Assembly: GCA_934667505.1 (NCBI GenBank)
Contig: CAKULY010000037.1
Location: forward strand, 1 to 15,077
DNA: 15,077 bases
From: an uncultured Treponema sp.
Lineage (GTDB): Bacteria; Spirochaetota; Spirochaetia; Treponematales; Treponemataceae
Direction of reading: 5' to 3'
Shown: positions 119-15,077 of the stretch, piece after piece
How the letters are laid out: every line of letters begins with the position of its first letter
How positions within the stretch are numbered: position 1 is the stretch's first letter
Notes under the pieces: generated by a model
Databases searched by the model: none
Told to the model about the DNA's origin: nothing
The model's input: only the letters and a program-made list of their open reading frames with translations
Position numbers and translations under genes: made by a program

Positions 119-1756
119 TTGTTTTATGAAAATAATTCAGCCGGTGCGGGCTGCAAGTGTCCTCTTTGCCATGGAAAAACTGAATATCTTGCAAGCGATT
201 TGCGGCCGGTTTTTCCTGAGGAGCGGCTTTTGCTTGAGCTTCTGCTTGAAAAAGAGCCGTTCGGCCTTGCCTCGTCTTCGGTGTGGAACTCTGCGAACCG
301 TTATTACATTGACGGAAAATCTGTTGCGGTTTCATCTTCGGCTTTTAGAAATGCCGACTGCGATTCTCTCCGAAAAAAAATTGGCGGGCTTTCAAAAGAA
401 AATCTTGAAGTTTCAAAAAATCATTTTGACTCAACAATACAGAAATTTATTCAGGCGAACAAATCCCGCTTTGACTTCATAAAGGACGAGGCTTTTGGTT
501 TTGTCCAGGACGAGGCGGAAAAGTTTGTGCAGAAAAACGGCGCAGGCTCAGAAAACCGCATGATTGTCTCGTTCTCAGGCGGAAAAGATTCCACGGCGAC
601 TGCGGATGTCGTTGTGAAGGCACTTGGAAATCCGTACATAACTCATCTTTTTGGAAACACGACGCTTGAATTTCCTTGCACAACCGAATATGCCGAACGC
701 TACAGAAAGACGCACCCGATGGCGGAATTCAGAATTGCGCAGAACACAGACCAGAATTTTTACGAAGTCTGCAAGGAAATAGGCCCTCCTGCAAGAATGA
801 TGAGATGGTGCTGCTCGATGTTCAAGACCGGACCGATTACGCGCGTCCTGAACCGAAAATTCGGCGACAAGCAGATTCTTACATTTTACGGAATCCGCAA
901 GAACGAAAGCGTGAGCCGCTCAAAATACAGCCGCGTCACAGAAAACACCGAGACTGTAAAAATCCAGAAGCAGACAGTCGCAAGCCCGATTTTCGACTGG
1001 AAAGACCTGGACGTGTGGCTTTATCTTCTTTCGGAAAAAGTTGACTTCAACGACGCTTACCGTCTTGGCTACGACAGAGTAGGCTGCTGGTGCTGCCCGA
1101 ACAACAATCTTCGCGCCCAGTTTCTTTCGCGCGTTTACATGAGCGAGCAGAGCGAAAAATGGCGGAACTTTCTTTTGGATTTTGCCCGGCAGATTGGAAA
1201 GCCCGACGCGGAAGAATATGTGGATTCAGGAAAATGGAAGGCTCGACAGGGCGGAAATGGAGTCGCGGCCGCAGACGACGTGAAACTTAAATTCACAAAC
1301 TGCACAAGCGAGGAGCATTCAAAAATCTACCAGCTTACGCGCGCCTTTGATGACAGCTTTTTGAACATGCTCGTTCCGTTTGGAATTCTGGCTCCGGAGC
1401 TTGGACGCAAGCTGATTCATGAGACGCTGATTCTGGACGTAAAGACAAAAGTCCCGATAATTTCCGTTCAGCCGTTCAACCAGAGCGGTTTTGAGCACGC
1501 CGTAAAAATCCGCACGATGAACGTGGAAAAGCACGACGACTTGCAGCGCATGATTGGCTATCAGGTGAGGAAATTCAACGCGTGCAGAAAGTGTCTTAAA
1601 TGCGAGTCCGTCTGCCGTTTTGGAGCGATTTCGCTTGGCGGAAACGAGTATCACATAAATCCTGAAAAATGCAGACACTGCAAAAAGTGCGTCACAGAAA
1701 AATATCTGACTGGCGGCTGCATGATGGAAAAATATTTAAGGACAAAGGATTTATAA
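119..1756 (+). CDS. sspD: SspD-type phosphorothioation protein: PAPS-reductase-like ATP pyrophosphatase with C-terminal ferredoxin domain
   Basis: This is a PP-loop enzyme of the PAPS reductase/DndC/SspD group, expected to activate or transfer sulfur for insertion into the DNA backbone. Counting from TTG at 119, the PP-loop SGGKDS is at residues 153-158. The family's paired cysteines follow as RWCC (229-232) and GCWCCP (322-327). The C-terminus holds two ferredoxin-like clusters: C489, C492, C495, C499 and C518, C521, C524, C534. The N-terminus has CKCPLC and then the motif DLRPVFPEERLLLE. Placement directly before DUF4007 and a large ATPase argues against an assimilatory CysH. The start is doubtful. 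The reading frame is open from 53 and encodes WCASCG at 95-112, the first half of an apparent zinc ribbon, yet it has no ATG, GTG or TTG before 119. An out-of-frame ATG sits at 87. The true start may be upstream with a 1-nt lesion. Confidence 0.88.
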   Translation: MFYENNSAGAGCKCPLCHGKTEYLASDLRPVFPEERLLLELLLEKEPFGLASSSVWNSANRYYIDGKSVAVSSSAFRNADCDSLRKKIGGLSKENLEVSKNHFDSTIQKFIQANKSRFDFIKDEAFGFVQDEAEKFVQKNGAGSENRMIVSFSGGKDSTATADVVVKALGNPYITHLFGNTTLEFPCTTEYAERYRKTHPMAEFRIAQNTDQNFYEVCKEIGPPARMMRWCCSMFKTGPITRVLNRKFGDKQILTFYGIRKNESVSRSKYSRVTENTETVKIQKQTVASPIFDWKDLDVWLYLLSEKVDFNDAYRLGYDRVGCWCCPNNNLRAQFLSRVYMSEQSEKWRNFLLDFARQIGKPDAEEYVDSGKWKARQGGNGVAAADDVKLKFTNCTSEEHSKIYQLTRAFDDSFLNMLVPFGILAPELGRKLIHETLILDVKTKVPIISVQPFNQSGFEHAVKIRTMNVEKHDDLQRMIGYQVRKFNACRKCLKCESVCRFGAISLGGNEYHINPEKCRHCKKCVTEKYLTGGCMMEKYLRTKDL

Positions 1757-1757
1757 A

Positions 1758-2705
1758 ATGAAATACAGAGGACACGAGACATTTTCAATCCGAAAAAACT
1801 GGCTTGCGAAGGGAATTGAGGCGGTTCAAAAAAATCCCGGGATTTTTACGGACAAAACTTTTGCGCCGATGGAAGAGCTTGGAATCGGGCGGAACATGGT
1901 TGTTTCGCTGCGCTACTGGATGAAAGCGGTTGGGCTGACAAAAGAAGAAAAAGGCAAAGAATCGAAAAAGACGGAGACAAGTTTTACTCCGCTTGGGAAG
2001 ATTATTTACGAGCACGACAAGTTTGTTGAGGAAGCCGGAACGCTCTGGCTTTTGCAGAATGAGCTTGCCGCAAACCGCGAAAATGCGACTTCCTGGTACT
2101 TTTTCTTTAATGAATTCAATCTTACGGAATTTACGAAAGATGATTTTGTTACTGAGCTTTTGAAATTTGACAAAGGAAATGGTGGCTCTACGGCTCTTAG
2201 CTCTTTTGACAGCGATTTTGAATGCATTGTGAACACTTACGTTTCCCGTTTTAAAAATGCGGCTGAAATTGACCCGGAAGATAACATCGAGTCTCCGTTT
2301 GCCGAGCTTGGGCTTGTGGATTCAATTGGCAGCGGAAAAAAACTTTATAGAAAAGTGATTCCGCCAAAGCAGAACATTCCGCCACTCATTTTTCTTGCCT
2401 CGCTTTATAGGATGTGCGAAAAAAGCAAAGACGGCGGCGCGGAACATGAATATAAAAATTTTGAGATTCCGCTTTCGGACATTCAGAACAGAAAAAACAG
2501 CGCAGGAAAAGTCTTTAATCTTGATGTCATCACTTTGATGGATATTTTGAGCGAGCTTGAGACTTTAAATCTTCTGAAAGTTGTGCGGACTGCCGGGCTT
2601 GATGTTGTCTGTCTTTTGCCATGGAAAGATTTTGAAAAAGATTCCGGCGAAAAATCCGCTTACGAAAACTGCATAGAAAAATATTACGAGGAACTGAAAA
2701 AATGA
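1758..2705 (+). CDS. sspB: DUF4007 protein, SspB-type component of the phosphorothioation machinery
   Basis: The 315-residue product has the DUF4007 hallmarks: RGHETFSIRKNWL at residues 4-16, and the segment LGIGRNMVVSLRYWMKAVGL at 41-60. The C-terminal third (about 255-315) looks like a small helical/winged domain ending in a charged tail. DUF4007 proteins beside SspC and SspD correspond, as I recall, to SspB, described as the nickase that opens one strand for sulfur insertion. No classical nuclease motif is evident to me, so the activity is taken from the family. The ATG lies one base after the sspD stop, with AAGGA about 10 nt upstream. The last four bases overlap the sspC start (ATGA), which points to translational coupling and a fixed dose of the three subunits. 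Confidence 0.85.
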   Translation: MKYRGHETFSIRKNWLAKGIEAVQKNPGIFTDKTFAPMEELGIGRNMVVSLRYWMKAVGLTKEEKGKESKKTETSFTPLGKIIYEHDKFVEEAGTLWLLQNELAANRENATSWYFFFNEFNLTEFTKDDFVTELLKFDKGNGGSTALSSFDSDFECIVNTYVSRFKNAAEIDPEDNIESPFAELGLVDSIGSGKKLYRKVIPPKQNIPPLIFLASLYRMCEKSKDGGAEHEYKNFEIPLSDIQNRKNSAGKVFNLDVITLMDILSELETLNLLKVVRTAGLDVVCLLPWKDFEKDSGEKSAYENCIEKYYEELKK

Positions 2706-5700
2706 AACTTCAAGAAAAAAATATGATAACTGTCTCAAAGAATTTTCAATCCTCGGTGAATATCGCGTTCGACTTTGACAATGCGGAAAAAATCGCAGGA
2801 TTTATTCCGACTTCTGAAGCCATAAAATTTATTGACGATGCAATCTCAAGCACAAGAAGCACGGGCGTTCCTAAAAAAACTTCTTCCGAAAGCCGCGCAG
2901 GAATTCTGATTGGACCTTATGGAAAAGGAAAGTCGTACATTGTGCTGGAAACACTTTCTCTTCTATATAATAACCCAGATTTGAAAAAACTTTTTGAGTC
3001 GCTTGCGCAAAAAATCAGCGAAAAAAATCCTAGCGCCGCGGAAAATGTGCGTGAATATGTAAAAAGCGGAAAACGTCTTCTTCCGATTGTGATAAACGGA
3101 AATTCGCAGAGCCTTTCGCAGTCGTTTTTGTACGCGCTTCATCTGACCTTAAAAAGACGTGAATTTGAAAATCTTATGCCGGAAACCCATTTTGAGTCGG
3201 CTGCAAAAATGATTGAAAAATGGGAAAACGAATATCCTGAGACTCTTGAAAAATTCAACAATCTGGCTTCCGAAAAAGCGGCGAAGTTCAAGCGGAATCT
3301 TTTAAATTACAATTCTGACTTTTTTGAGGAATTTGAAAAACTTTATCCGTCGCTCACTTCGGGAAGCGAATTTAATCCGTTTGCGGGCTTTGATGTTGTC
3401 GATATTTATGAGCAGGTCTGCAAGAAACTTTGCGAAAGCGGAAAATACGATGGAATTTTTGTTGTTTACGATGAATTCGGAAAATATCTTGAGTCAAGCA
3501 TTGCACATGCGACTGTAAAAGACACAAAGCTCCTGCAGGATTTTGCCGAGCGTTCTGACCGCAGCGGAAAAAATCAGCTTCACTTGCTTTTGATTTGCCA
3601 CAAGGAGATTGAAAACTACATCGACATTCTTCCAAAGCAGAAAGTTGACGGCTGGAAAGGCGTTTCCGAGCGTTTCCGTCATATTCATCTTTACAGCAAT
3701 TATTCTGAAGTCTACAGCCTGATAAGCGCGGCGATTCTAAAAAATGAGGCTGAATGGAAAAAATTCTCTGAGCAGAACAAGGCGCAGTTTGAAAATCTTA
3801 AAAACGTCTGGTTCGGCGGCGGATTCCGTCTTTTTTCAAATCTTGAAGGCGGTTTTGCTGACACAATTTTGTACGGCTGCTATCCGCTTCACCCGGTTAC
3901 AAGCTACATTTTGCCGCGTCTTTCTGAAAAAGTCGCGCAGAACGAGAGGACTCTTTTTACTTTTCTTTCCGGCAACGACAAGAACGGATTTTCTTCCTTG
4001 ATTGGAAAACTTGAAAAATCAGAAAAAACTGCGGCTGACGGAAAAGAATTTTTGCAGGGCGGAAAGATAATTCTTTTTACGCCGGACGTTCTTTTTGATT
4101 ATTTTGAAAACCAGCTTCAAAACGAGCCTTACACAAGCGAAATCAAAAAATATTATCTTGTGGCGGCAAAGATTCTTCGCCAGCTTGAAAATAATTCCCT
4201 TGAATCAAAAATTGTAAAAACTCTTTCGCTGATTTACTGCCTAAACCAATTTGAGCGGCTTTCTCCGGATCTGAATTTTCTTTTTGCGCTTTACGATGAC
4301 GCGGGCTATTCTCGTGAGGAAATCCGTGGCGCGGTTAAAAATCTTTCTGAAAATCTTGGCGTGGTTTATCTGAACGTCCACAACAATTACCTTCAGCTAA
4401 AGGCTGCTTCCGGCGCGGATATTCCTGCTCTGATTTCGGACTGCGTTGAAAAACGGCGGCGCACGGTGCGGATTGTTGATATTCTGAACAATTTCAACAC
4501 TGAAAAATTCATCTACCCGACTTTGTACAACATCAAAAACAAGATGACGCGGTATTTCCGCTTTGTTTTTGTCTCTGAAAAAGAATTTTTGGAGCTGGAA
4601 GACTGGAAAACATTTGCTGAAACTTTTAATTCGGACGGCTGCGTTTTCGCGCTCTTCAAGGATTTTGAAAATGCGGAAAATTCTGGCGGAACAGATTTTG
4701 AAACGGAAAAAATCATTGAGCGGGCAAAGAAACTTTCTTCCGACTCAAAAAATCTTGTCTTTATAGTTTCAAAACTGGATGAGAATTTTTCTGAAAAGCT
4801 GCGCCGTTTTGATTCTGTCGCGTTCCTGCGGAACCAGCTTTTGGCGGCTTCTTCAAATTCTTTGGATTCTGTTCTTTTTGACGAGTACGACATTGTTTAT
4901 CAGGATTTCTACGAGGTTGTAAAGCAGATTGTCCATTCCTACGTTCAGCCGGAGCGGAATCTTGCGCTTTACGTTTCGCTTGGCGCGGAGCATAAGCTTT
5001 ACAGGAAATCTGAATTCACAAACCTTGTTTCGGATGTTTGCTCGGAAATTTTTTACAGAACGCCGGTTGTGAACAACGAAATGCTGAACAAAAACTGCCT
5101 TACCGGGGCTGCGGCAAAAAGCCGGGCAAAACTTCTGGACGCAATGCTGAATTCTCCGTCTTTGGATTTGGGCTTGTCCGGGAGCGGGCAGGAAGTTTCT
5201 TTTATGCGGAGCGCGCTTGTTCTTCCTGGAATCCTGAAAAAAGCTGACAAAGATTCTTTGGAAAAGAAAATCTTTAATCTTGAGCCGTCTTCCGGCACCG
5301 AAAAAAACGACGGGAACTTTAAGAAACTTTTTGCGGTGATAAAAGAATTTTTTGCGCATGCGGAAAAAAACGAAATCAGTTTTTATGAGCTTTTTGAGCT
5401 TCTCGTAAAGCCTGAAAACGGATTCGGTCTTAGGCGCGGCGTGATTCCGCTCTACATTGCCGCCGTTCTTTCTTCATTTGCAAAAAATGCCGTGCTCAAA
5501 AAAAGCGGAATTGAAGTTCCTGTGAACGCCCAAAGCCTTGCTGAAATCGCGGAAAGTCCTGAAGAGTTTTCTGTGCGTGTTCAGAACTGGAACGATGAAA
5601 AAGAAAATTATGTGAAGAAAACCGAAAACATTTTTGCCGACTTTGTGATTGACGATGAAAAAAACGCGAACGGCTATTCTTACCTTATAAACGCGATGCT

Positions 5701-6604
5701 CCGCTGGTACCGCTCGCTTGCAAAATACACAAAGCAGATGAAAAAAGTCTACGGCGGTTTGAAAGGCGGTTTTGATAAAAAAACGGTTCCGGTGCAGAAA
5801 GAATATTCTGAGTTTTTGAACATCCTGAAGCAGGGCGGATTCGGCACGAATGAAATCCTTTTTGAGAAGATTCCTTGCGCGTTCAAAAATGAAAAGCCTG
5901 AGCAGGCTGATTTTTCGCTTTCAGAAAATATAAAAGGCACGAAGAATTTTTTTGACTCCGCGCTGGAAAACTTCACAGAAAAAATCATTGAGGAGACAAA
6001 AAATTTCTTTGGCAAGAATGCAGGTGAAAAATCCCTAAAAAATGTGATTGCGGAATTCTGCGCGGAACTAGAGCCGGAAACTGAAAACCACGTTTTTGAA
6101 AACGGCGCGCATTTGCTTTTGAAGATTTACAAGTCCGCCGGAAACGATGAAAAGCAGACTGCATTTGAAATGGCAAAAGTTCTGACCGGACTTAGCATTG
6201 ACGACTGGAACGATGAGACCGTGGGCGTGTTTTTTGAGCGGCTTTCGGAGCTGAACCGGACGCTTCTTGATTTTAAGGATAATTCTGTTGCCAAAAAGAA
6301 TGAGCCGGTAGTTCGGCAGGCTCAGTGTCCGCTTGATAGTTCTGAAAAGTCGGTAGATGCAAACATTGACGGAGTTTCCATTTCAACGTTTGTAGAATCC
6401 CGCACAGCTGACAATTACGAAATCCGTTTTGTTCAAAGCGGAGCAGAAAACGCAAAATCAAAGTCGTTTAGGAAAGTGGAATGTTCTGTTAGGGCAAAGT
6501 CGCTTGAAGAGGAAATCTGGCGGACAATCGAGGAAATGGGACAGTCCGTGACAGACGCGGAAAAGCGGCAGGTTCTGGTGAGTTTGCTTGAGAAGCTATG
6601 CTAA
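2702..6604 (+). CDS. sspC: large P-loop ATPase, SspC-type
   Basis: The 1300-residue protein has a Walker A motif GPYGKGKS (residues 71-78). A hydrophobic strand ending in a DE pair, IFVVYDEFGKYLE (252-264), fits Walker B. The layout resembles the big AAA-type ATPases of BREX (BrxC) and Ssp systems, and the position after a DUF4007 gene identifies SspC. It probably powers DNA engagement for SspB and SspD. The start at 2702 is preferred over ATG 2723 because GAGGAA lies about 8 nt upstream and the codon overlaps the sspB stop. The central and C-terminal parts are long, charged and helical, without motifs I recognise. Residues 1201-1212 (EPVVRQAQCPLD) come from a dispersed repeat read in frame, so part of the 1200-1240 linker is probably a late insertion. 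Confidence 0.82.
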   Translation: MKLQEKNMITVSKNFQSSVNIAFDFDNAEKIAGFIPTSEAIKFIDDAISSTRSTGVPKKTSSESRAGILIGPYGKGKSYIVLETLSLLYNNPDLKKLFESLAQKISEKNPSAAENVREYVKSGKRLLPIVINGNSQSLSQSFLYALHLTLKRREFENLMPETHFESAAKMIEKWENEYPETLEKFNNLASEKAAKFKRNLLNYNSDFFEEFEKLYPSLTSGSEFNPFAGFDVVDIYEQVCKKLCESGKYDGIFVVYDEFGKYLESSIAHATVKDTKLLQDFAERSDRSGKNQLHLLLICHKEIENYIDILPKQKVDGWKGVSERFRHIHLYSNYSEVYSLISAAILKNEAEWKKFSEQNKAQFENLKNVWFGGGFRLFSNLEGGFADTILYGCYPLHPVTSYILPRLSEKVAQNERTLFTFLSGNDKNGFSSLIGKLEKSEKTAADGKEFLQGGKIILFTPDVLFDYFENQLQNEPYTSEIKKYYLVAAKILRQLENNSLESKIVKTLSLIYCLNQFERLSPDLNFLFALYDDAGYSREEIRGAVKNLSENLGVVYLNVHNNYLQLKAASGADIPALISDCVEKRRRTVRIVDILNNFNTEKFIYPTLYNIKNKMTRYFRFVFVSEKEFLELEDWKTFAETFNSDGCVFALFKDFENAENSGGTDFETEKIIERAKKLSSDSKNLVFIVSKLDENFSEKLRRFDSVAFLRNQLLAASSNSLDSVLFDEYDIVYQDFYEVVKQIVHSYVQPERNLALYVSLGAEHKLYRKSEFTNLVSDVCSEIFYRTPVVNNEMLNKNCLTGAAAKSRAKLLDAMLNSPSLDLGLSGSGQEVSFMRSALVLPGILKKADKDSLEKKIFNLEPSSGTEKNDGNFKKLFAVIKEFFAHAEKNEISFYELFELLVKPENGFGLRRGVIPLYIAAVLSSFAKNAVLKKSGIEVPVNAQSLAEIAESPEEFSVRVQNWNDEKENYVKKTENIFADFVIDDEKNANGYSYLINAMLRWYRSLAKYTKQMKKVYGGLKGGFDKKTVPVQKEYSEFLNILKQGGFGTNEILFEKIPCAFKNEKPEQADFSLSENIKGTKNFFDSALENFTEKIIEETKNFFGKNAGEKSLKNVIAEFCAELEPETENHVFENGAHLLLKIYKSAGNDEKQTAFEMAKVLTGLSIDDWNDETVGVFFERLSELNRTLLDFKDNSVAKKNEPVVRQAQCPLDSSEKSVDANIDGVSISTFVESRTADNYEIRFVQSGAENAKSKSFRKVECSVRAKSLEEEIWRTIEEMGQSVTDAEKRQVLVSLLEKLC
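6305..6331 (+). repeat. dispersed repeat unit inside the sspC reading frame
   Basis: The core TTCGGCAGGCTCA (6312-6324) differs at two positions from TTCGACAAGCTCA, a short motif I recall as scattered through several bacterial genomes, Treponema among them. It is translated within sspC as VVRQAQCPL, and such peptides usually mark repeat-derived linkers. The reading frame is kept, so the protein is extended rather than broken. Confidence 0.5.
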
Positions 6605-6639
6605 TGCTGACGTGCTAGGGATTGTAGGGGCGCGAAGCG

Positions 6640-6682: not shown

Positions 6683-6746
6683 TGTAGGCGAAAGCCGGAA
6701 CCCCGAAAAGCCCGGCCCGAACGAAGTGAGGGTAGCACCCAAAATT

Positions 6747-6751
6747 GGAGG
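6747..6751 (+). promoter_or_regulatory. ribosome binding site fixing the sspA start
   Basis: GGAGG followed by five A residues places ATG 6757 at ordinary spacing. The alternative TTG at 6745 would put this site inside the coding region and adds four residues not expected before the family's usual FYFDNAATT opening. Confidence 0.8.
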
Positions 6752-6756
6752 AAAAA

Positions 6757-7917
6757 ATGAGTTTTTATTTTGACAATGCGGCTACGACTTTTCCGAAGCC
6801 TGAATGTGTCTACGAATTTATGGATTCTTTTTACCGGACTCACGGCGGAAATGCGGGGCGCGGGCAGTACAAGCTTGCGGCGGAGGCGTCAAAGGTGATT
6901 TTTGAGACGCGCGGCTTTATCCAGAAAATTCTTTGCTGCCCGAACAAGGACGTGATTTTTGCTCCGAGCGCGACGATTGCGCTGAACATGGTGATTCAAG
7001 GGCTGCTTGCGGACGACAAGAGGAAAACCGTTTACATTTCGCCGTTCGAGCATAATTCGGTGACGCGCGTTCTGCATCATTTTGAAAAGAGCGGAAAAAT
7101 CAGCGTAAGGCAGTTTTTTGTCTCGCCAGACTTTGAATACGGCATGGAAAAAATCAACGCGCAGTTTGCGGAGATTCCGCCTGACATTGTGGTTGCAAGC
7201 CACGCAAGCAACGTAATCGGGCTTGTCGCTCCTGTCCTTGAAATTTTTGCGGCGGCGAAAAAGTTTGGCGCGCTTACCGTAACCGACATGGCGCAGACGG
7301 CAGGGCTTGTTCCGCTGGATGTGGCGAGCGAGCTTGTCGACTTTGCGGTTTTTGCCGGGCACAAGACTTTGTACGGCCCGTTCGGAATCGGCGGATTTGT
7401 GAAAAAACGGAATGTGAAACTTGAGCCGATTCTTTTTGGCGGAACAGGCGTCGAGTCTGCGAATCAGGAAATGCCCGAAAACATTCCGAGCCGCTATGAG
7501 ATGGGAAGCCAGAACATCTGTGCGGTTGCTGGGCTTCACTCGGCGGCACAGTGGTTTTTGCAGAATCAGGACGAAATCCGCGCCACCGAAGAAAAAAATC
7601 ACCATAGACTTTTAGAGATTTTGCAGCGTTACGATTTTTTGAAGATTGCAGGCCCTGCCGACAGGTTTTCACAAAAGACAAAATGCATCGGCGTTGTCTC
7701 CACGTTTTTTGACGGCTACTCGGCGGAAGACATCGGAAACGTTTTTGACGAGGCGGAAATCGCCGTGCGCACCGGACTTCAATGCTCGCCGCTCGCCCAC
7801 AAATTCTTAGGCACATTCCCGGCCGGCACAGTGCGCTTCAGCGTGGGATATTTCACAAGCGAAGAGGACTTTTGCGCGCTGGAAAAGGCGATGGGATATA
7901 TTGAGGCGAATAGGTAG
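6757..7917 (+). CDS. sspA: cysteine desulfurase, SspA-type
   Basis: This is a PLP-dependent class V aminotransferase-fold enzyme that removes sulfur from L-cysteine as a protein persulfide. In the 386-residue product, FDNAATT opens the fold, FEHNS is at 97-101, and TDMAQTAG (176-183) supplies the PLP-contacting Asp and Gln. AGHKTLYGP (200-208) carries the Schiff-base lysine K203. RTGLQCSPLAH (338-348) carries the persulfide cysteine C343. The family resemblance is to the group typified by an RxGxxCxPLAHK loop. Placement after sspC identifies it as the sulfur donor for SspD rather than a general IscS/NifS. It has its own strong ribosome site after the structured spacer, and the helicase gene starts 11 nt downstream. 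SspA is the last gene of the G/C-richer half of the locus. A housekeeping role as well cannot be excluded. Confidence 0.87.
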   Translation: MSFYFDNAATTFPKPECVYEFMDSFYRTHGGNAGRGQYKLAAEASKVIFETRGFIQKILCCPNKDVIFAPSATIALNMVIQGLLADDKRKTVYISPFEHNSVTRVLHHFEKSGKISVRQFFVSPDFEYGMEKINAQFAEIPPDIVVASHASNVIGLVAPVLEIFAAAKKFGALTVTDMAQTAGLVPLDVASELVDFAVFAGHKTLYGPFGIGGFVKKRNVKLEPILFGGTGVESANQEMPENIPSRYEMGSQNICAVAGLHSAAQWFLQNQDEIRATEEKNHHRLLEILQRYDFLKIAGPADRFSQKTKCIGVVSTFFDGYSAEDIGNVFDEAEIAVRTGLQCSPLAHKFLGTFPAGTVRFSVGYFTSEEDFCALEKAMGYIEANR

Positions 7918-7928
7918 GAGAGAAAAAA

Positions 7929-10163
7929 ATGCTGCAAAAATTCAAAAATCCTTTAATCGATAATTCTCAAAATTACAAGCTTAGTTCATATATAAAAACT
8001 TTGTTGCTGGATGAAAATTATAATGAGTTTTATATAGCGACCGGTTATTGGGATATTCCCTCTATTGCGCTTATCTTTGAGGAACTCAAAATTTTTCTTG
8101 AACGGTCAGATACGAAAATAAAACTTCTGCTTGGCAAAGACCCAGAAGTTCAGAATTATCAGTTAAGCCATGCTGATGAAATTGACTTAAATGATTATCC
8201 GGCCTGTTACATCAAGTATCATTTGGAAAATATCCCTGTCGTTGCTGATTATGAAGATGCAATTTCATTGCTTTTAAATTATTGTGCTGGAGAAAATCCA
8301 AAGTTTGAAATTCACACTTATAAAGATTTGCATAATTCAAGTTTTCTTCATGCAAAGTGCTACATATTTAAAGGGAAGAACGATTCTTGCGCGATTGTTG
8401 GGAGTTCCAATTTCACAAAGAAAGGTCTTGAAGATAATTCAGAATTGAATTATTTGGAGATGAATTCTTCCAATGTCGTTGTGCGTCCTGAAAACGGAAC
8501 TTCTGTAAAAGGTCATATCTTCTGGTTTGATGAGAAATGGAAAAGCAGCAAATCTTGGGAAAAAATCTTTATTTATACCGTATTAAAGACAAATATAGGA
8601 TGTCGTTCGTTCTCAAAAGGCATTGAAAGCAAGTTCATTTCAGAAAAGAAAAAATTACAGATTGAAAAAATACAGAATGGGGAAATTGAAAACAAAATGA
8701 ATATTCCAAGAATTCCTTCGGACATAAATCTTTTTGATTATCAAAAAGAAGCGATTTCAGAATGGGAAAAACAAGACTACAAAGGCATTTTTGATATGGC
8801 TACAGGAACCGGCAAGACGCTTACAGGTTTAGGGGCGATTTCAAGGTTGAGCGAAGTTTTAAATGACAGGCTTGCAGTTTTCATAGTTTGCCCTTATCAG
8901 CATTTAGTTGAACAGTGGGTTGAGGATATTGAAAAATTCGGAATGAAACCGATTATCGGCTATAGTTCTTCGGAACAGAAAAATTGGAAATCATTGCTAA
9001 AATATGCTGTGGAAGATTTTAATCTGGAAATAAAAAATAGGACATTTTTTTGCTTTATTTCTACAAACGCTACATTTTCTTCCGAACTTGTTCAAAATCA
9101 AATCTCTAAACTGCATGGAAACGCCTTGCTTGTCATTGATGAAGCTCATAATTTTGGTGCGGAATATTTGAGAAAACTTTTAAGCAATAAATTTTCTTAT
9201 CGCCTTGCGCTTTCTGCCACATTGGAACGCCACGGAGATAAAGACGGAACTCAATCACTTTATGATTACTTTGGGAAAAAATGCATTGAATATGACCTTG
9301 AGCGAGCAATAAAAGAGAGAAAACTCACAAGATATAAATATTATCCGGTTATTGTTTCATTGACAGATGATGAATTTGTTTATTATGAACAATATTCCCG
9401 CGAGATTTTAAAGTGCGTTGTAAAAGGAAAAAATGGAAAATTAAAGCTGAATGAAAAAGGCAAGCGAATTGCGTTGCAGCGGGCAAGACTTGTAGCTGGT
9501 GCTTCTAATAAAATCGGAGAATTAAAAGAGCAGATAACTCCTTACATAAGCGACAATCACATTCTTGTTTACTGCGGCGCTGCAAAAGTTTTCGATGAGG
9601 ATTCAGAATTTGATGATTCTAACGATGATGAAATTTCAGAAGGAAAAAGGCAAATCGAAGTTGTTACAGATTTGCTTGGAAATCTTCTTGGAATGAAAGT
9701 TGCCCAGTTTACTTCAAAAGAAAATATGCAGGAACGTTCAGTGATAAAGAAAGAGTTTTCGGAAGGAAAAAATCTGCAGGCTCTTATCGCAATAAAATGC
9801 CTTGATGAAGGTGTAAATATTCCTGCAATAAAAACAGCCTTTATTCTTGCGAGCACAACAAATCCGAAAGAGTACATTCAACGGCGAGGACGTGTGTTAA
9901 GAAAATCAGACGGAAAAGATTTTGCTGAAATTTATGACTTTATAACGATTCCTCGTCCTTTAAGTGAAGTTATTTACGAAACAGAAGAAGAAAAAAAGAA
10001 AGGAAAGGGACTAGTTATAAATGAACTTGTTCGTGCAATTGAATTTGCACGTCTTTCCATGAATGAGATTTCAGCAATGGAAAAAATTGATGAAATAAAA
10101 GAACTGTATGAACTTACAGATAAGGATTTGATTTTTAAGGAGAATTTTGAGAATGAACAATGA
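7929..10163 (+). CDS. PLD-nuclease-like domain fused to a DEAD/DEAH superfamily 2 helicase
   Basis: Residues 1-220 form a phospholipase-D-like domain. HAK at 141-143 is followed by GSSN at 158-161, the HxK...GSxN signature of one HKD half. The SF2 motor follows: LFDYQKEAI (268-276), Walker A ATGTGKT (291-297), DEAH (404-407), SAT (429-431) and arginine-finger motif QRRGRVLR (651-658). The charged helical tail (685-744) may be a docking region. This layout is seen in restriction-type helicases. Here it probably cuts or unwinds DNA lacking phosphorothioates, because no SspE-like DUF262/DUF1524 gene is present. AGGAG at 7916-7920 precedes the ATG by 8 nt. Base composition drops here: a hand count gave about 30% GC for 8221-8280 against about 52% for 7141-7200 in sspA. 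The end overlaps the next gene by 11 nt. Confidence 0.85.
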   Translation: MLQKFKNPLIDNSQNYKLSSYIKTLLLDENYNEFYIATGYWDIPSIALIFEELKIFLERSDTKIKLLLGKDPEVQNYQLSHADEIDLNDYPACYIKYHLENIPVVADYEDAISLLLNYCAGENPKFEIHTYKDLHNSSFLHAKCYIFKGKNDSCAIVGSSNFTKKGLEDNSELNYLEMNSSNVVVRPENGTSVKGHIFWFDEKWKSSKSWEKIFIYTVLKTNIGCRSFSKGIESKFISEKKKLQIEKIQNGEIENKMNIPRIPSDINLFDYQKEAISEWEKQDYKGIFDMATGTGKTLTGLGAISRLSEVLNDRLAVFIVCPYQHLVEQWVEDIEKFGMKPIIGYSSSEQKNWKSLLKYAVEDFNLEIKNRTFFCFISTNATFSSELVQNQISKLHGNALLVIDEAHNFGAEYLRKLLSNKFSYRLALSATLERHGDKDGTQSLYDYFGKKCIEYDLERAIKERKLTRYKYYPVIVSLTDDEFVYYEQYSREILKCVVKGKNGKLKLNEKGKRIALQRARLVAGASNKIGELKEQITPYISDNHILVYCGAAKVFDEDSEFDDSNDDEISEGKRQIEVVTDLLGNLLGMKVAQFTSKENMQERSVIKKEFSEGKNLQALIAIKCLDEGVNIPAIKTAFILASTTNPKEYIQRRGRVLRKSDGKDFAEIYDFITIPRPLSEVIYETEEEKKKGKGLVINELVRAIEFARLSMNEISAMEKIDEIKELYELTDKDLIFKENFENEQ

Positions 10164-10329
10164 AAAAGTTGAGGTGGATGGAATCGAAATTGATGTAAAA
10201 AAGGCAAGAAACATTCTTACAGCAATTTTGATTGCGGAAAAGAAAAATATTGCCACAAAAGAAAAAGGCGATTCAGAAATGATTAAGGATATTAAGAAAA
10301 AAATTGCGGAGGAAGTTGCATGCTTATAA
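10153..10329 (+). CDS. small protein linking helicase and DndD-like genes
   Basis: The 58-residue acidic/basic helical protein starts MNNEKVEVDG and ends in AEEVACL. Its pattern (KKARNILTAILIAEKKNIATKEKGD, positions about 18-42, then EMIKDIKKKIAEE) matches my memory of a family named DNA modification system-associated small protein, found between a helicase and a DndD-like gene. The ATG at 10153 is preferred over TTG 10147 because AAGGAG (10137-10142) lies 10 nt upstream. It overlaps the helicase by 11 nt and the next gene by 10 nt, so all three are likely translated in series. It may be an adaptor between the helicase and the SMC-like ATPase. No catalytic motif is visible. Confidence 0.72.
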   Translation: MNNEKVEVDGIEIDVKKARNILTAILIAEKKNIATKEKGDSEMIKDIKKKIAEEVACL

Positions 10330-12320
10330 AAAAAATCACACTTGAAAATTTTAGGCAGTTCAAAGATATACAGTCTGTGGACTTTTCTGAAGACAATGAG
10401 AAAAATATCACGATTATTCTTGGAGAAAATGGAGCAGGAAAAACAACTTTTGCTCAGGCATTCAGGTGGTGCTTGTATGGAAAAACAACTTTTACCGACT
10501 CTATTTTGTTGAATAAGGAAATCTCGCAAAATCTAGGACCAAACAAAGAATCTTTTGTAAGAGTTTCATTGCAGCTTATACATAGCAATATTCAATATGA
10601 GATAACCCGGGAGCAAAAATATACAACGAATGCGACAGGCGGGCTTAATACACCGAACAGTTCTGAATTGAAAATCAAGTATAGAAATCCACAGGGAAAC
10701 ACTAAATTTGTTGAACAAAGAGAAGTTGATTTAAGAATAAAGGAAATACTTCCTTCCGAGCTTTCTAATTATTTTTTCTTTGACGGTGAACGAATTCAAA
10801 ATATGAGCAAAGAAATAAATGATGGAAAGAGCGCAGAATTCAAAGAGGCTGTGGAACGATTACTTGGTCTTTCTGCTTTTATGATTACTCTTGACCATTT
10901 AAATGGGCGGTCGAGTTCTTCTGTCATAAAGAGTTACAACAGGGACTTTGATTCAAAAGCAAATTCCCAGATTGCAGATTTACAAGATAAGATTGATTCT
11001 TTGAATAAAGAACTTAATAGAATTGATGAGCGAAATAAAGAAATCGATGATGATGTGGCAATGCTTGAAAAACAGCAGGAAGCACTTTCCAAAGAAATGG
11101 AAGCAAACAAAGATTCTGAAAAACTTATAAAAGAGAAAAAAAGTCATGAAGTTTCTTGTGAAAAATTAGAAAAAGAAAAAACCGATGCTATCTCTAATTT
11201 TGTTGATATTTTCAATAATAAAGCTGTGTCTTGGTTTTCAAGAAAAATTATCAGAGATGTTTTAACAGAACTTGCTGAGACTGATAGTCTTGATAAAGGA
11301 ATTCCTGATATAACTGCGAAGACAATAGATTATCTAAAGAATCGTGGAGTTTGTATTTGCGGAACTTGTTTAAAAGAGAATTCAAAAGAGCTTGAAGCAT
11401 TTGATGAGTTATTGAAATTTATTCCTCCTAAAAGTCTTGGAAATTTTATTTCTGACTTTAGCGGAAGCGCAAAGCAGCGGCTTGCTGACTCTGAATGCTT
11501 TTATGAAGATTCCATTGTTCAGAAGTATAGAGAAATCAGAGAAAAAGATTCGGAACTTGAAGGATTGAATTCGGAAATTTCAGAAATTGAAAAACGGCTT
11601 AAAAATATTAAGTCTTCGGCAGATTTGCAAATAAAAGCAGACGCGAATAAGAGACAAATTGCCGAGCTTAATAGAGAAAAATCTTCTCTGTTGGAAGAGA
11701 AAGGCGCAAAAACAGAAAAACAAAACCGAGCTCAATCTTCTCTTGACGAACAAGCCTTGAAGAGTGTCAGCAATAAGAAAATTGCAGTTTATAAAGCCTA
11801 TGCAACATATATGTATCAGCTGTTAAAAGATGACTATTCAAAACGGGAAAAGGAAGTAAGGGAACGGCTTCAGGAAAATATCAATGAGATATTCAAAAAT
11901 ATTTACAACGGAAAACTTTCATTGCAAGTAGATGAAAAATACAACATAAAAGTTGAGCTTGATGAATTTGCAAGTTACAGCGGCATGATTGAAACTTCAA
12001 CAGCACAAAGCATGTCTGTCATTTTTGCTTTTATCGCTGGGGTAATAAAAATGGCTCGTGAAAATGCAAAAAATAGAAATTCTGATATGTCTTTACAGTC
12101 AGAACCATATCCACTTGTAATGGATGCGCCCCTTTCAAATTTTGACAAGAAACGTGTAAAAAATGTTTGCGAAACTCTTCCTAAAATTGCAGAGCAAGTT
12201 ATTTTCTTTTCCTATGACAAGGATGCAGAAGTCGCAGAAGAAAATATGAGCGCAAAAATTGGAAAAAGATACGAGTTCATAAAAATAAATGAACTGGAAA
12301 CTAGAATTGAAGCGAGGTAA
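10320..12320 (+). CDS. DndD/SMC-like AAA ATPase with zinc-hook-like motif
   Basis: This 666-residue RecF/SMC-class ATPase has the split nucleotide-binding halves at its ends. Walker A GENGAGKT is at 35-42, and the DndD-typical FFFDGERI lies near 155-162. Long coiled coils flank a cysteine cluster CICGTC (C345, C347, C350) in the zinc-hook position. Near the C-terminus are a signature-like STAQSMSVIFAFIAGVIKMA and a Walker B LVMDAPLSNFD. DndD itself belongs to the dsDNA Dnd modification complex, but no DndC/DndE partner set is here. I infer a role in the effector module, sensing DNA ends or structures with the helicase. It starts inside the 3' end of the small gene and ends two nt before the next ATG. 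The hook is C-x-C-x2-C rather than the standard CxxC. Confidence 0.82.
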   Translation: MLIKKITLENFRQFKDIQSVDFSEDNEKNITIILGENGAGKTTFAQAFRWCLYGKTTFTDSILLNKEISQNLGPNKESFVRVSLQLIHSNIQYEITREQKYTTNATGGLNTPNSSELKIKYRNPQGNTKFVEQREVDLRIKEILPSELSNYFFFDGERIQNMSKEINDGKSAEFKEAVERLLGLSAFMITLDHLNGRSSSSVIKSYNRDFDSKANSQIADLQDKIDSLNKELNRIDERNKEIDDDVAMLEKQQEALSKEMEANKDSEKLIKEKKSHEVSCEKLEKEKTDAISNFVDIFNNKAVSWFSRKIIRDVLTELAETDSLDKGIPDITAKTIDYLKNRGVCICGTCLKENSKELEAFDELLKFIPPKSLGNFISDFSGSAKQRLADSECFYEDSIVQKYREIREKDSELEGLNSEISEIEKRLKNIKSSADLQIKADANKRQIAELNREKSSLLEEKGAKTEKQNRAQSSLDEQALKSVSNKKIAVYKAYATYMYQLLKDDYSKREKEVRERLQENINEIFKNIYNGKLSLQVDEKYNIKVELDEFASYSGMIETSTAQSMSVIFAFIAGVIKMARENAKNRNSDMSLQSEPYPLVMDAPLSNFDKKRVKNVCETLPKIAEQVIFFSYDKDAEVAEENMSAKIGKRYEFIKINELETRIEAR

Positions 12321-12322
12321 AT

Positions 12323-12859
12323 ATGTTTGATAATGAATACTCATTTAAGGGATCTCATGCAGTAAAAGTTAATAAACTTACAGCAAAATTTCCTCAGTCT
12401 GGAAACAGCTTGTTTAAACGCAATATCGATGTTTTTGTTTTGGCTCCAATTGTTGGAATGCTTTACAACAGAATGTCAGATATTGACTCTAGTATTGAAA
12501 CAACAAAAATATTTCCGGGACAATTTACAAATCACCATAATGATGTGTATTTTACATACAGGCTTGTGATGCTCGTAGCGCAAAAGGAAAAAAAATCTAT
12601 AAATGAGCGAGTTAATAAAGCTTTTAATGGAGAAGCGCAAGGAACAGCGGAAGAAGATTTTAAAATTTTTGAAAAATATCTTCTTGGCGGAATTGACGTT
12701 CTTTATGAGAAACTGATTGAGCAGGATAATCCGTCTTCTGAAGATGATTATATTAGCAATCTCAATAATTTTCTTTCAGAAATTCATGAACGTTATGAGG
12801 CTGAGCAAGATTCAAGTCAAGATTTCTTGGCAAAACTGGAACAAATTGCCAGAGATTAA
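12323..12859 (+). CDS. unrecognised acidic protein of the effector module
   Basis: I cannot assign a named family. The 178-residue protein has a conserved-looking core, KRNIDVFVLAPIVGMLYNR (32-50), TKIFPGQF (61-68), a hydrophobic helix FTYRLVMLV (77-85), and GGIDVLYEKLIE (122-133). An acidic tail follows. It looks soluble and all-helical, with no signal peptide or catalytic signature. I have a faint memory of similar proteins beside phosphorothioation and restriction gene sets, but not of a function. GAGG at 12314-12317 sits 5 nt before the ATG, and the gene follows the SMC-like ATPase by 2 nt, so it is almost certainly part of that complex or its control. It does not resemble DndE, which I considered. 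Confidence 0.75.
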   Translation: MFDNEYSFKGSHAVKVNKLTAKFPQSGNSLFKRNIDVFVLAPIVGMLYNRMSDIDSSIETTKIFPGQFTNHHNDVYFTYRLVMLVAQKEKKSINERVNKAFNGEAQGTAEEDFKIFEKYLLGGIDVLYEKLIEQDNPSSEDDYISNLNNFLSEIHERYEAEQDSSQDFLAKLEQIARD

Positions 12860-12868
12860 CATCATAAA

Positions 12869-13918
12869 ATGACAGTTGCAGAAATTCAGAATCAACTTTT
12901 TTCTCAATATAAAAGAAAAGGCTTTTTGTCAGAGAATGAAATTACAGATTGCTGCGTCAGCAATAATCTAGATTTCTTTGAAACTGATGAAGTCATGCAG
13001 TTCCTTATAGATAAGAAAGTTTTGTTTTCAGAGAAAAAAGGCGAAATCATTTGTGAGGAAGAAGACATTTATGATAAAGCTCAAATTGATTACGATGAAT
13101 TTTTTGATAAGGTTTTAGCTGAATATCCAAACTTTAAAATTATTGTGGAGCATATTAAGAGCATAAAGCCGCCGCAGCATCGCGAATGGAAAAATCTTAT
13201 TCATGAAGCCCAAAGCGGAAACGTTTATGCTTTTAACAGAATGACAGAAATGTATTTGCGTGGGGTTTTACGCATTTCTTATAACTTTGCGAAGGAAAAT
13301 TATTGTGATTTTGAGGAGGCTTTTCAAAACGGCACAATAGGATTAATCCGAGCTATAAAAAGTTTCGATGTAACGAGTCCGAATTCATTTGTTGGTTATT
13401 ATTCTCTTTCTGTGCTAAGTGAGATGCAACGGAAGTATAACGTAAAAAACTCTTTTTTTGATTTGCCTGCTCATTTTTCGCAAAAGATTTTTGAATTTTT
13501 AGGAATAATTTCAAAACATCTTGCAAATGGAAAAACTCCAGAAGAAAGCATGAATATTGTATCTGATGATTTTTGCCTAGAAATCAATCCAAAATTAAAA
13601 ATGTACTTTTTACCTTATATTGATTTAGACGGTATTTCTTATGAAAATTTTGCTTTTGATGTTCATATTGAAGATGATATTATTTATGAATCATTAAAAA
13701 AGCAATTGAATGAAGTTTTGCTTACATTGCTAGAGCGGGAACGGGAAGTATTAGAAATGCGGTTCGGACTTAATAATTTAAAGCAGATGACGCTCGAAGA
13801 TGTTGGAAAATATTACAATGTTTCAAGAGAAAGAATCCGACAGATAGAGGCAAAAGCTATAAAAAGATTGCAGAATTCAAGAATAAAAACTTTGCTTAAT
13901 GAGTATATGAATTCTTAA
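12869..13918 (+). CDS. sigma-70-like protein with region 1.1 and degenerate promoter-melting region
   Basis: Residues 1-70 resemble sigma region 1.1 (KRKGFLSENEITDCC..., then an EEED stretch). Residues 118-170 match region 2.1-2.2, with FEEAFQNGTIGLIRAIKSFD the core-polymerase contact. The next segment, FVGYYSLSVLSEMQRKY (174-190), replaces the usual tryptophan-rich FSTYATWWIRQAI, so the -10 melting residues are largely lost. FDLPAHF (197-203) and GKTPEES fit region 3. Region 4 is strong: TLEDVGKYYNVSRERIRQIEAKAIKRL (308-334) is a near-canonical -35 helix-turn-helix. It may direct transcription of the module, or it may bind polymerase as a regulator or decoy. It lies 9 nt after the 178-aa gene, with only a weak ribosome site. 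It closes the apparent operon. Confidence 0.85.
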   Translation: MTVAEIQNQLFSQYKRKGFLSENEITDCCVSNNLDFFETDEVMQFLIDKKVLFSEKKGEIICEEEDIYDKAQIDYDEFFDKVLAEYPNFKIIVEHIKSIKPPQHREWKNLIHEAQSGNVYAFNRMTEMYLRGVLRISYNFAKENYCDFEEAFQNGTIGLIRAIKSFDVTSPNSFVGYYSLSVLSEMQRKYNVKNSFFDLPAHFSQKIFEFLGIISKHLANGKTPEESMNIVSDDFCLEINPKLKMYFLPYIDLDGISYENFAFDVHIEDDIIYESLKKQLNEVLLTLLEREREVLEMRFGLNNLKQMTLEDVGKYYNVSRERIRQIEAKAIKRLQNSRIKTLLNEYMNS

Positions 13919-13949: not shown

Positions 13950-13978
13950 TATACACTTAAAATCTAATGGTTTATAAT
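13950..13978 (+). promoter_or_regulatory. predicted promoter for the DUF6978-DUF1828 pair
   Basis: A perfect TATAAT at 13973-13978 lies 17 nt after TATACA (13950-13955), which keeps four of six -35 bases. The predicted transcription start falls near 13985, where an ATG sits, so the message may be leaderless or nearly so. There is no hairpin with a U-run between the sigma-like gene and this site, so read-through is also possible. Confidence 0.45.
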
Positions 13979-13984
13979 ATAAGT

Positions 13985-14427
13985 ATGTCAAGCGGTCTTT
14001 CAAAAGAAGAAATAGACTATCTTCTTAACCTTGAAAAGAATTGTAAATCTTCTCAAAAATACAATTTTCCAAGTTTAGGCGGAAAAATCGAAATCGAATT
14101 ATCATCGGCTGATAAGAATGAAGACTTCTTGTTAGATGTTTGGCGTTCACATATTGATTTAGCAAAAACAAAATTTCAAAATCGGGCTAGGAAGACAGTT
14201 CCAATTGTAAGGCTTGATATTAATTCTGCGCCACACAAAATCCTGATGGAGTGCACTTGGGCGGAACGCATTTTCATATTTATAGAGAAGGTTATGGTGA
14301 TAAATTTGCGTATCCTTTACCAGACGAGTTTGCGGATTGTAAAAGTCCTAGAGATTTTCTTGAAAAGTTTATGGATTATTGCCATATTATGAAAAAGCCG
14401 ATAATCGAGGAGGATTTATTTGTATGA
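13985..14427 (+). pseudogene. DUF6978-type gene broken by a single-base frameshift
   Basis: The frame from 13985 reads MSSGLSKEEIDYLL and reaches RLDINSAPH at 14236. Homology-like sequence then resumes one frame over at 14239 as NPDGVHLGGTHFHIYREGY, followed by GDKFAYPLPDEF and ending IIEEDLFV. Adding one A to the run at 14237-14240 gives an intact product of about 147 residues that ends at 14427. Its stop overlaps the next gene's ATG as ATGA, which strongly supports that frame as ancestral. The unshifted frame stops at 14392 after a run of unlikely residues. The R-LDI...PH-NPDG...HIYREG pattern fits DUF6978, whose function I do not know. ATG 13967 is in frame but lies upstream of the -10 box, so 13985 is preferred. 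The lesion could be a genuine mutation or a sequencing slip. Confidence 0.75.
14407..14413 (+). promoter_or_regulatory. strong ribosome binding site of the DUF1828 gene
   Basis: GAGGAGG lies 10 nt before ATG 14424, inside the end of the DUF6978-type gene. It lets the downstream gene be translated even though the frameshift terminates the upstream frame early at 14392. Confidence 0.7.
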
Positions 14428-15077
14428 AAAAAACAGAAATAGATGCTCTTATTGATAGTTATTTTAAATGGCTAAAAGAAAATACTTCTTCAAAAATCAT
14501 AAATGATACTTGGTCGGAAATTACAACGCCGTATTTAGACAGACACAATGATTGCCTTCAGATTTATGCTAAAAAAGAAGGTGATAAGATTATTCTTTCA
14601 GATGACGGTTATATTATTGATGATTTGGAATCTTCTGGCTGTCATTTGGATTCTCCTAGACGAAAAGAAATTTTGAATACAACTCTTCGTGGTTTTGGTG
14701 TTTTGCTAGATAACAATCAGCTGATTGCAAAAACTTCGGCAGAAAATTTTCCTCAGAAAAAGCATGATTTGATTCAGGCTATGCTTGCTGTCAATGATTT
14801 ATTTTATCTTTCCAAGCCACAAGTGCAGAATCTGTTTTTCGATGATGTTGTCGCTTGGTTTGATAAAAATGATATTCGTTATGTTCAGAAAGTAAAATTT
14901 TCAGGGAAAACTGGTTTTGACAATATGTTTGATTTTGGCATACCAAAGTCAAGAAAATATTCAGAAAGACTTGTGCAGACTATAACGAATCCGTCAAAAG
15001 AAAATTCTATGAATCTTGTTTTTAAGTGGATTGATACAAAAGATGAGCGGCCGACAGAGTCAGTTCTATTTGCAATG
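14424..15077 (+). CDS. DUF1828/DUF1829 protein, 3' end outside the window
   Basis: The first 218 residues are visible and the frame is still open at the last base. Residues about 30-125 match DUF1828: PYLDRHNDCLQIYA, then LSDDGYIIDDLESSGC, GFGVLL, NFPQKKHDLIQAMLAVNDLF. From about 135 onward the DUF1829 pattern follows: FFDDVVAWFDKNDIRY, FSGKTGFDNMFDFGIPKS, FKWIDTKDERPTES. The biochemical role is not known to me. The pairing with a DUF6978-type gene through a 4-nt overlap suggests a two-component unit of the kind carried in defence islands or mobile DNA. Composition is A/T-rich like the effector genes upstream. Confidence 0.82.
   Translation, partial: MKKTEIDALIDSYFKWLKENTSSKIINDTWSEITTPYLDRHNDCLQIYAKKEGDKIILSDDGYIIDDLESSGCHLDSPRRKEILNTTLRGFGVLLDNNQLIAKTSAENFPQKKHDLIQAMLAVNDLFYLSKPQVQNLFFDDVVAWFDKNDIRYVQKVKFSGKTGFDNMFDFGIPKSRKYSERLVQTITNPSKENSMNLVFKWIDTKDERPTESVLFAM

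Follow-up and report, generated by a model that had tools for sequence, protein, structure and literature searches.

Why should a defence operon end in a gene for a sigma-70-like protein? The question is raised by a contig of an uncultured Treponema sp. (GenBank assembly GCA_934667505.1, contig CAKULY010000037.1), from which a stretch of 15,077 nucleotides, hereafter the window, was analysed. The window is coded on the + strand throughout: sspD-sspB-sspC-sspA (119-7917) is followed by pbeA-pbeB-pbeC-pbeD (7929-12859) and then by the sigma-like gene, here called SIG.

119..1756, + strand: sspD, a brxP-like PAPS-reductase-type sulphurtransferase (Pfam PAPS_reduct 104 bits), matched better in PADLOC by the BrxP model (261 bits) than by that of SspD (46 bits)
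1758..2705, + strand: sspB, a DUF4007 protein (Pfam DUF4007 279 bits; PADLOC SspB 203 bits)
2702..6604, + strand: sspC, a BrxC-like ATPase (PADLOC SspC 382 bits)
6745..7917, + strand: sspA, a cysteine desulfurase (Pfam Aminotran_5 230 bits; NCBIfam TIGR01977 381 bits, cut-off 377; PADLOC SspA 139 bits)
7929..10163, + strand: pbeA, an HKD (PLD) nuclease fused to an SF2 helicase (PADLOC PbeA 578 bits; Pfam PLDc_2 and ResIII)
10153..10329, + strand: pbeB, a small protein of 58 aa between pbeA and pbeC (ORF reading)
10320..12320, + strand: pbeC, a CxC-type ABC ATPase with the motif CICGTC (PADLOC PbeC 375 bits; motif)
12323..12859, + strand: pbeD, a DndE cognate (weak match to NCBIfam TIGR04062, 19.6 bits; cut-off 74)
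12869..13918, + strand: SIG (working name pbeE), a SigA-derived, sigma-like protein of 349 aa (Pfam, profile match, conserved place)

The operon is therefore an SspABCD modification set joined to a complete PbeABCD module and a sigma-like gene. Its first part comprises SspB (DUF4007), SspC, a PAPS-reductase-type SspD and a cysteine desulfurase, and its second part has PbeA, PbeB, PbeC and PbeD in that order. An earlier, sequence-only reading of this DNA had described a DNA-modification defence operon with SIG as its last gene. A phosphorothioation operon it is, but that reading missed the PbeABCD half, which is the fixed neighbour of SIG. SIG is last in the Ssp-Pbe set, although two more ORFs on this strand, belonging to a different candidate system, start 48 bp on. 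This second candidate defence pair behind SIG consists of a DUF6978 gene (13967-14392; PADLOC PDC-M24A), whose frame leaves the domain after about residue 91, with the rest in another frame, and a DUF1828/DUF1829 gene (14424-15077; PDC-M24B) cut by the window end.

For PbeB and PbeD, place and relatives weigh more in the assignment than curated models. A profile built from the window PbeB, a single sequence, finds ORFs of 60-63 aa in the same interval of loci L129, L153 and L155 (23-39 bits), and PbeD shares 40-48% identity with the product of the gene that follows pbeC in Clostridia loci. PbeA scores 509 bits against NCBIfam TIGR04095, under the cut-off of 600. The motif of PbeC is the one that gives the CxC-type ABC ATPases their name, a class described in passages of PMC10853773. 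We also considered a BREX type 4 system and rejected it, PglZ and BrxL being absent among the matches listed for the ten scanned ORFs of the 15-kb window. At the 5' end, the sspD frame in positions 1-118 lacks the first zinc ribbon found in the relatives L175, L176 and L123; given this and an in-frame stop upstream of sspD, the true start or the integrity of sspD is uncertain. Clostridia loci carry an extra ORF of 96-107 aa between sspA and pbeA (L082 4776-5099; L085 4774-5064; L086 4772-5062), where the window has a gap of only 11 bp.

The SIG frame opens with an ATG at 12869, 9 bp after the preceding gene on the same strand, and its stop codon ends at 13918. Four parts of the protein matter for what follows:

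12893..13042, + strand: region 1.1-like N-terminal domain, aa 9-58 (Pfam Sigma70_r1_1 13.5 bits, E 0.072, under the cut-off)
13247..13399, + strand: sigma region 2 core, aa 127-177 (Pfam Sigma70_r2 26.6 bits; cut-off 24)
13388..13432, + strand: rewritten region 2.3/2.4, aa 174-188, with W433, W434, R436 and Q437 replaced (column table and alignment)
13718..13873, + strand: sigma region 4 with an intact -35-reading HTH, aa 284-335 (Pfam Sigma70_r4 58.8 bits; cut-off 24.1)

Regions 2 and 4 both score above their curated cut-offs, which places SIG among the sigma-70 proteins of Pfam. The window protein gives no match at E <= 0.1 to the Pfam models of regions 1.2 and 3 (PF00140, PF04539). A 54-row family profile, compared with SigA chains in the PDB, aligns in one stretch over positions 7-363 (252 bits) and runs colinear with SigA through both of these regions. 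Since this colinearity starts at position 7, it also supports the region 1.1-like N-terminus proposed in the sequence-only reading, though Sigma70_r1_1 itself stays below its cut-off. By homology, then, SIG is a diverged derivative of a primary sigma factor (SigA). Treponema is the name given to three relatives that are 84-90% identical to the window protein (P0003, P0017 and, as a fragment, P0026).

The two DNA-reading parts of this protein have fared differently. In region 4.2, the -35 contacts R584, E585, R588 and Q589 are kept (residue positions throughout are in E. coli sigma70 numbering), in line with the near-canonical region 4 noted in the sequence-only reading. Region 2.3/2.4 of the window protein reads F-V-G-Y-Y-S-L-S-V-L-S-E-M-Q-R; F427, Y430 and R441 are kept, and W433, W434, R436 and Q437 have become L, S, L and S, which removes the -10 reading and melting residues W433/W434/Q437 (L/S/S). 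It had been concluded from this loss that the protein cannot melt DNA well, which does not follow. ECF sigma factors are also without the tryptophan pair, yet they initiate, so missing tryptophans are no proof of a melting defect.

Is SIG simply a chance neighbour, the sigma gene of a mobile element that landed behind pbeD? Genome contigs searched with the window SIG as a single sequence gave no relative; a profile of SIG residues 1-211, which excludes region 4, returned 10 loci. The order SspC-SspA-PbeA-PbeC-PbeD-SIG, as in the window, recurs in L082, L084, L085, L086, L088 and L152. In L083 and L087 the contig starts inside the operon, and PbeD still precedes SIG. The contig of L081 starts 161 bp before SIG, with the upstream gene outside it, and no PbeD was found elsewhere in that genome. 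Two SIG loci, L151 and L152, were recovered by a search with PbeD alone. Within the close family (A2 profile score >200 bits), PbeD is the direct 5' neighbour of SIG in 10 of the 10 loci whose upstream gene is visible, window included. L151 nearly duplicates L082, and L084, L085, L086 and L088 are closely related to one another, so that these amount to about six distinct lineages. SspD and SspB lie upstream in genomes G002, G004, G005, G006 and G1002. In the compared loci, identity to the window (blastp) is 29-31% for SIG, 40-48% for PbeD, 45-47% for PbeC and 60-66% for PbeA. Seven of the eight loci L081-L088 are metagenome-assembled, L082 coming from the isolate Pseudobacteroides cellulosolvens DSM 2933, and for Treponema-type proteins the gene context comes from the window alone.

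The wider family gives chance some room. L089 and L090, more distant from the window SIG (25-26% identical), have no Pbe genes alongside and lie next to mobile-element genes. Their products are longer (L089 221-2005, 594 aa; L090 9698-11404, 568 aa, with a C-terminal HTH_3) and stand beside transposase or recombinase/DUF6551 genes. Among viral contigs, no family member was present in the best 80 of 355 relatives found, the best of those 80 scoring 86 bits on the A2 profile, which is RpoD level; a search of viral contigs with the window PbeA returned none.

The trees speak against chance. SIG-bearing loci, window included, form one clade in the PbeC tree (6 of 30 rows) and in the PbeA tree (6 of 33 rows), with an SH-aLRT of 97; both trees were made by a quick method with no bootstrap, after removal of the near-copies L085, L086 and L151 and of ORFs <500 or <400 aa. 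No SIG-less locus falls inside the clade, and its nearest neighbours are L155, L156 and L153, in which the end of the contig cuts off the slot behind pbeD. In a sigma tree, a branch of length 1.16 (SH-aLRT 100) separates the SIG family from RpoD and three other sigma rows, and L089 and L090 group on the SIG side. A single clade of the short SIG rows, as opposed to L089/L090, P0071-type and P0082/P0084 proteins, is not rejected (p-AU 0.517), which is not proof.

The unit has also travelled. The PbeABCD-SIG genes of G002 (P. cellulosolvens; L082) and G857 (L151) are 99.95% identical over 8.4 kb, while the RpoD proteins of the same two genomes are 80% identical, which indicates that the module moved between distant genomes with SIG aboard. 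We considered whether L151 might be a PbeABCD-SIG unit without modification genes and ruled this out, as the contig of L151 also carries an SspB 100% identical to that of G002, placed about 36 kb ahead of pbeA rather than about 5 kb as in G002. G857 thus holds the same system split by an insert and no independent arrangement.

Taken together, the constant position behind pbeD in all 10 informative loci, which probably represent two phyla and have a SIG about 30% identical to the window protein, the single clade in both trees and the near-identical unit in two genomes with diverged RpoD make a chance neighbour very improbable, and we regard that answer as largely refuted. The link to defence drawn in the sequence-only reading is borne out, and close homologues do sit in Pbe loci. 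SIG was probably recruited once and inherited with PbeABCD. From homology, gene order, co-inheritance, the near-identical unit in two distant genomes and an RpoD-like -35 head combined with a diverged region 2, we conclude that, in one lineage of phosphorothioate-dependent PbeABCD modules, SIG is very probably the fifth component, derived from a primary sigma factor, most likely in one event, and kept behind pbeD ever since.

Searches with TIGR04095 (E <= 1e-50) recovered PbeA from 6 of 391 Clostridia-class genomes; in the order to which G004 belongs, 12 of 394 genomes have it. SIG was found at family level in 1 of the 391 (E <= 1e-30) and in 2 of the 394, where 10 of 12 matches (100-118 bits) were classed as RpoD-level by score alone. 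All three family-level genomes (G002, G004 and G005) carry SIG in Pbe loci.

How far does the rewriting of region 2.3/2.4 extend? In the Treponema-type clade, R436 has become L in 25 of 25 rows and Q437 has become S in 24 of 25, counts that leave out the fragments P0021, P0022, P0026 and P0027 and in which many rows are near-copies; the same residues are missing from the more distant members P0023, P0024 and P0025, which are 57-62% identical to the window protein. Elsewhere, W434 is present in all nine of the family proteins encoded in loci (L081-L088, L152), in 17 of 18 rows P0029-46 and in 32 of 34 rows P0047-80, and the nine non-Treponema proteins from loci all keep F427, Y430, W434, Q437, R441 and H455. 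The loss of WWIRQ-type residues noted in the sequence-only reading is thus true of the window protein but is a property of the clade and not of the family; as aligned, it is confined to the Treponema-type proteins, and most other members keep W434 and Q437.

This retention outside Treponema favours the possibility that SIG is an alternative (group 2-like) sigma factor, one that drives its own defence operon or a small set of genes and is switched off by region 1.1. In the Treponema-type clade, the -10 specificity would then have been changed rather than lost. We consider this a real possibility, second to the reading developed below. SIG is colinear with SigA over its full length, region 1.1 included, as a working sigma factor would be, it keeps the six residues above in all nine non-Treponema proteins from loci, and the final gene of an operon is a common place for an autoregulator. 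The loss of the usual -10 reader in the Treponema-type clade fits such a factor less well.

How conservation is distributed along the protein also bears on this possibility. Compared with seven RpoD rows, ten SIG rows are 68-84% identical in region 4.2 and 26-41% identical in region 2.1-2.2. Genes with sigma region 4 from G002, G857 and G004 served as a control; the region-4 profile used (SIG and RpoD rows) recognised 18 of 59 loci, 17 of them alignable, and mostly missed short ECF-like genes. The 17 comprise 3 RpoD, 3 SIG and 11 other genes. In 10 of these 11 ordinary alternative sigmas (the exception is L197), region 2.1-2.2 is better kept than region 4.2, the order opposite to that in SIG; their identities run from 0.22 to 0.40 in region 4.2 and from 0.29 to 0.56 in region 2.1-2.2. 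The profile favours RpoD-like region 4, and the choice of controls therefore works against the contrast.

Region 2 separates the two groups less well. For region 2.1-2.2 the ranges overlap (0.26-0.41 in SIG, 0.29-0.56 in alternative sigmas), and in region 2.3-2.4 the non-Treponema SIG rows cover the same range as the alternative sigmas (0.27-0.50 in both), which suits an alternative sigma factor. Given this overlap, SIG may bind RNA polymerase. The contrast between SIG and alternative sigmas resides chiefly in region 4.2. On these identities, an ordinary alternative sigma changes its -35 reader, whereas SIG retains that of RpoD; with a -35 head so close to RpoD's, it would define no separate -35 class. 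SIG seems to have been kept for reading housekeeping-type -35 elements.

A -35 head without the usual -10 reader, as found in the Treponema-type clade, could also belong to an effector that shuts off transcription. Once Pbe had sensed infection, such a protein would be released or activated, occupy core polymerase or -35 elements and stop phage (and host) transcription. This is unlikely. The non-Treponema members retain the -10 residues and so would not be pure blockers, the core-binding region 2.1-2.2 is poorly conserved, and any release or toxicity is purely hypothetical.

The reading that we rank first, and hold tentatively, is that SIG is a promoter- or polymerase-targeting subunit of PbeABCD; we favour a promoter-binding accessory subunit over a plain sigma factor. 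The roles put forward in the sequence-only reading (regulator, transcription block, sensor of modified promoters) may each still apply. Region 4 of SIG would bind housekeeping-type -35 elements and/or the flap of RNA polymerase, and SIG would also contact PbeC-PbeD or PbeA. It would thereby direct the HKD-nuclease/helicase, along with the scanning ATPase, to the promoters of unmodified DNA entering the cell, or to polymerase engaged at them. Binding of DNA or polymerase, contact with Pbe proteins and the targeting role itself are what we infer. If promoter opening is not needed, region 2 would be free to drift, and we propose that the replaced -10 reader of the Treponema-type clade reflects this. 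A targeting subunit would explain the kept -35 head over a diverged region 2, and also why the gene stays intact in the one clade that has lost its -10 reader.

Several observations count against targeting. Most Pbe loci do without SIG: PbeD is present in 12 of 398 Bacillota genomes, the 3' side of its gene is visible in 11, and SIG stands there in 3 of the 11 (G002, G857 and G1002). The colinearity with SigA and the retention of W434 and Q437 outside the Treponema-type clade look like those of a working sigma factor, and a conserved -35 head would also be expected of a group 2-like one. Finally, the relatives L089 and L090 sit by mobile-element genes without Pbe.

The slot directly behind pbeD offers a further view, since it is visible in 12 Ssp-type loci that lack SIG; in L130 and L153 the contig ends before it. 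Its occupant is nuclease-like in 4 of the 12: GmrSD-type proteins in L156, L157 and L161, and in L154 a PLD protein with a weak PD-(D/E)XK match behind it. The others hold uncharacterised proteins that form two homologous pairs (L123 with L129; L124 with L131), a 5'-nucleotidase-like gene (L158), an integrase gene (L159), sspD (L160) and a gene on the opposite strand (L155). One gene beyond the slot, L131 has a GmrSD protein, and L124 has a gene similar to MzaB in third place after pbeD. The slot is an accessory position. Nuclease-like proteins in the place of SIG speak against an alternative sigma factor and are what a shut-off effector would lead one to expect; in the remaining 8 of 12 no nuclease is recognised directly behind pbeD, which counts against targeting.

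SIG is not the only sigma-like protein at Pbe loci. Sixty loci, 974 kb in all with some overlap, were scanned with a region-4 profile, which recognised 22 ORFs, 16 of them in loci with Pbe genes. Nine of the 16 are SIG directly behind pbeD, and the other seven are proteins outside the SIG lineage encoded directly 5' of pbeA (L091, L092, L096, L125, L134, L135 and L188). The remaining six ORFs are SIG of L081 and the sigma genes of L089, L090, L093, L094 and L095, loci that had been fetched for those genes. Scanned with Pfam, four of the 5'-of-pbeA proteins (L091, L096, L125 and L134) have region 4 and no region 2, together with an alpha-CTD that scores above cut-off in L125 and L134 and more weakly in L091 and L096. 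Among plasmids, 4 of 12 sampled loci have such a protein, the 12 having been taken from 21 PbeA records and two of them chosen for an annotated sigma-like HTH. An accessory slot and separate sigma-4 proteins at Pbe loci would both be explained by a targeting subunit. More broadly, and this is rather doubtful, PbeABCD-type defence may use modules derived from RNA polymerase as a general targeting device, either SIG or the alpha-CTD/sigma-region-4 protein 5' of pbeA, so that self and non-self would be read at promoters by the head of a primary sigma factor.

Two neighbouring observations deserve mention. Plasmids of L. plantarum (L093 8635-13307) and E. faecium (L095 8899-13342) carry a sigma-70 gene with regions 2, 3 and 4 paired with a gene for a large helicase that matches PADLOC C3a193, and in L095 type I restriction genes precede it. 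Haloarchaeal plasmids have genes of the TFIIB family and for TATA-box-binding protein near Pbe-like loci (L191 13013-13936; L183 3574-4134), which may be chance.

A plain search for consensus elements in five upstream sequences turned up no shared promoter, which counts somewhat against an alternative sigma factor. A palindrome, TGTCC-n8-GGACA, lies upstream of sspD, perfect in G004, G005 and G006 and with one mismatch in G002; sites with one mismatch are numerous elsewhere in the loci. In SIG-bearing Clostridia loci the palindrome upstream of sspD, TGTCCGTTTTATCGGACA, is located at about 3967 in L175 (one arm mismatch), 4347 in L176, 6166 in L177 and 5058 in L178, and a similar site occurs at L082 16081. 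The candidate copy in the window has two mismatches and was set aside, about 0.2 such sites being expected by chance in 118 bp (hand estimate). In G002, a small ORF recognised by eye as XRE-like lies upstream of sspD, just upstream of the palindrome, and a regulator separate from SIG may therefore exist.

The choice of sites by phosphorothioate-dependent restriction is an open question, since only a minority of possible phosphorothioate sites are modified, as stated in passages of PMC10853773. A promoter-reading protein inherited with the Pbe module leads us to propose that targeting proceeds by promoter or polymerase and not by the modification motif alone. If the targeting reading is true, SIG and the alpha-CTD/sigma-4 proteins found at other Pbe loci would fall under one scheme; if SIG is a plain sigma factor, the result is still a defence module with its own diverged transcription factor. 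The inherited sigma-like part suggests that this kind of sulphur-marking defence may use the promoter-reading module of its host.

How does this compare with known systems? A defence operon with a sigma-like gene is not new in kind, as the MZA anti-phage system has a sigma factor, MzaA (PMC9523054, in the portion available). Like SIG, MzaA (NCBIfam NF041931, PADLOC) is a sigma-70-like protein of a defence operon with similarity in regions 2-4. Orthology was rejected, SIG scoring 110.5 bits against the NF041931 cut-off of 800 and 115 bits with the RpoD model; other Mza models gave no match among the listed matches of the window ORFs. Sigma-like HTH domains also occur in phosphorothioate-related or BREX defence proteins, namely a DndH variant (PMC10853773, whose available text uses 'sigma' once, for this sigma-factor-related HTH) and the N-terminal SIGMA-HTH of BrxL (described in passages of PMC12839542). 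Those are isolated domains within larger proteins, whereas SIG is a complete sigma-like protein. It differs from SigA/RpoD itself, with which it is colinear over regions 1.1 to 4 and shares the -35 contacts, in its strongly diverged region 2. A literature search whose scope excluded most subscription papers and all preprints returned no publication on a sigma-like component of PbeABCD, and in the available text of one review PbeABCD and 'sigma factor' appear together, unrelated.

Both halves of the Ssp-Pbe set have known counterparts. With SspABCD-SspE and SspABCD-SspFGH, as presented in the accessible part of PMC8092258, it has SspB, SspC, SspD and the cysteine desulfurase in common. Its restriction part, however, is PbeABCD, and no match named SspE is among those listed for the ten window ORFs. 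The names sspBCD and pbeABCD both occur in PMC8053081. The order PbeA, PbeB, PbeC, PbeD is that of DndCDEA-PbeABCD in haloarchaea (PMC6459918, where 'sigma' does not occur in the main text available) and of the CxC ABC ATPase-DndE pairing in passages of PMC10853773. Compared with the haloarchaeal system, the window has SspABCD as partner instead of DndCDEA, and a sigma-like gene after pbeD.
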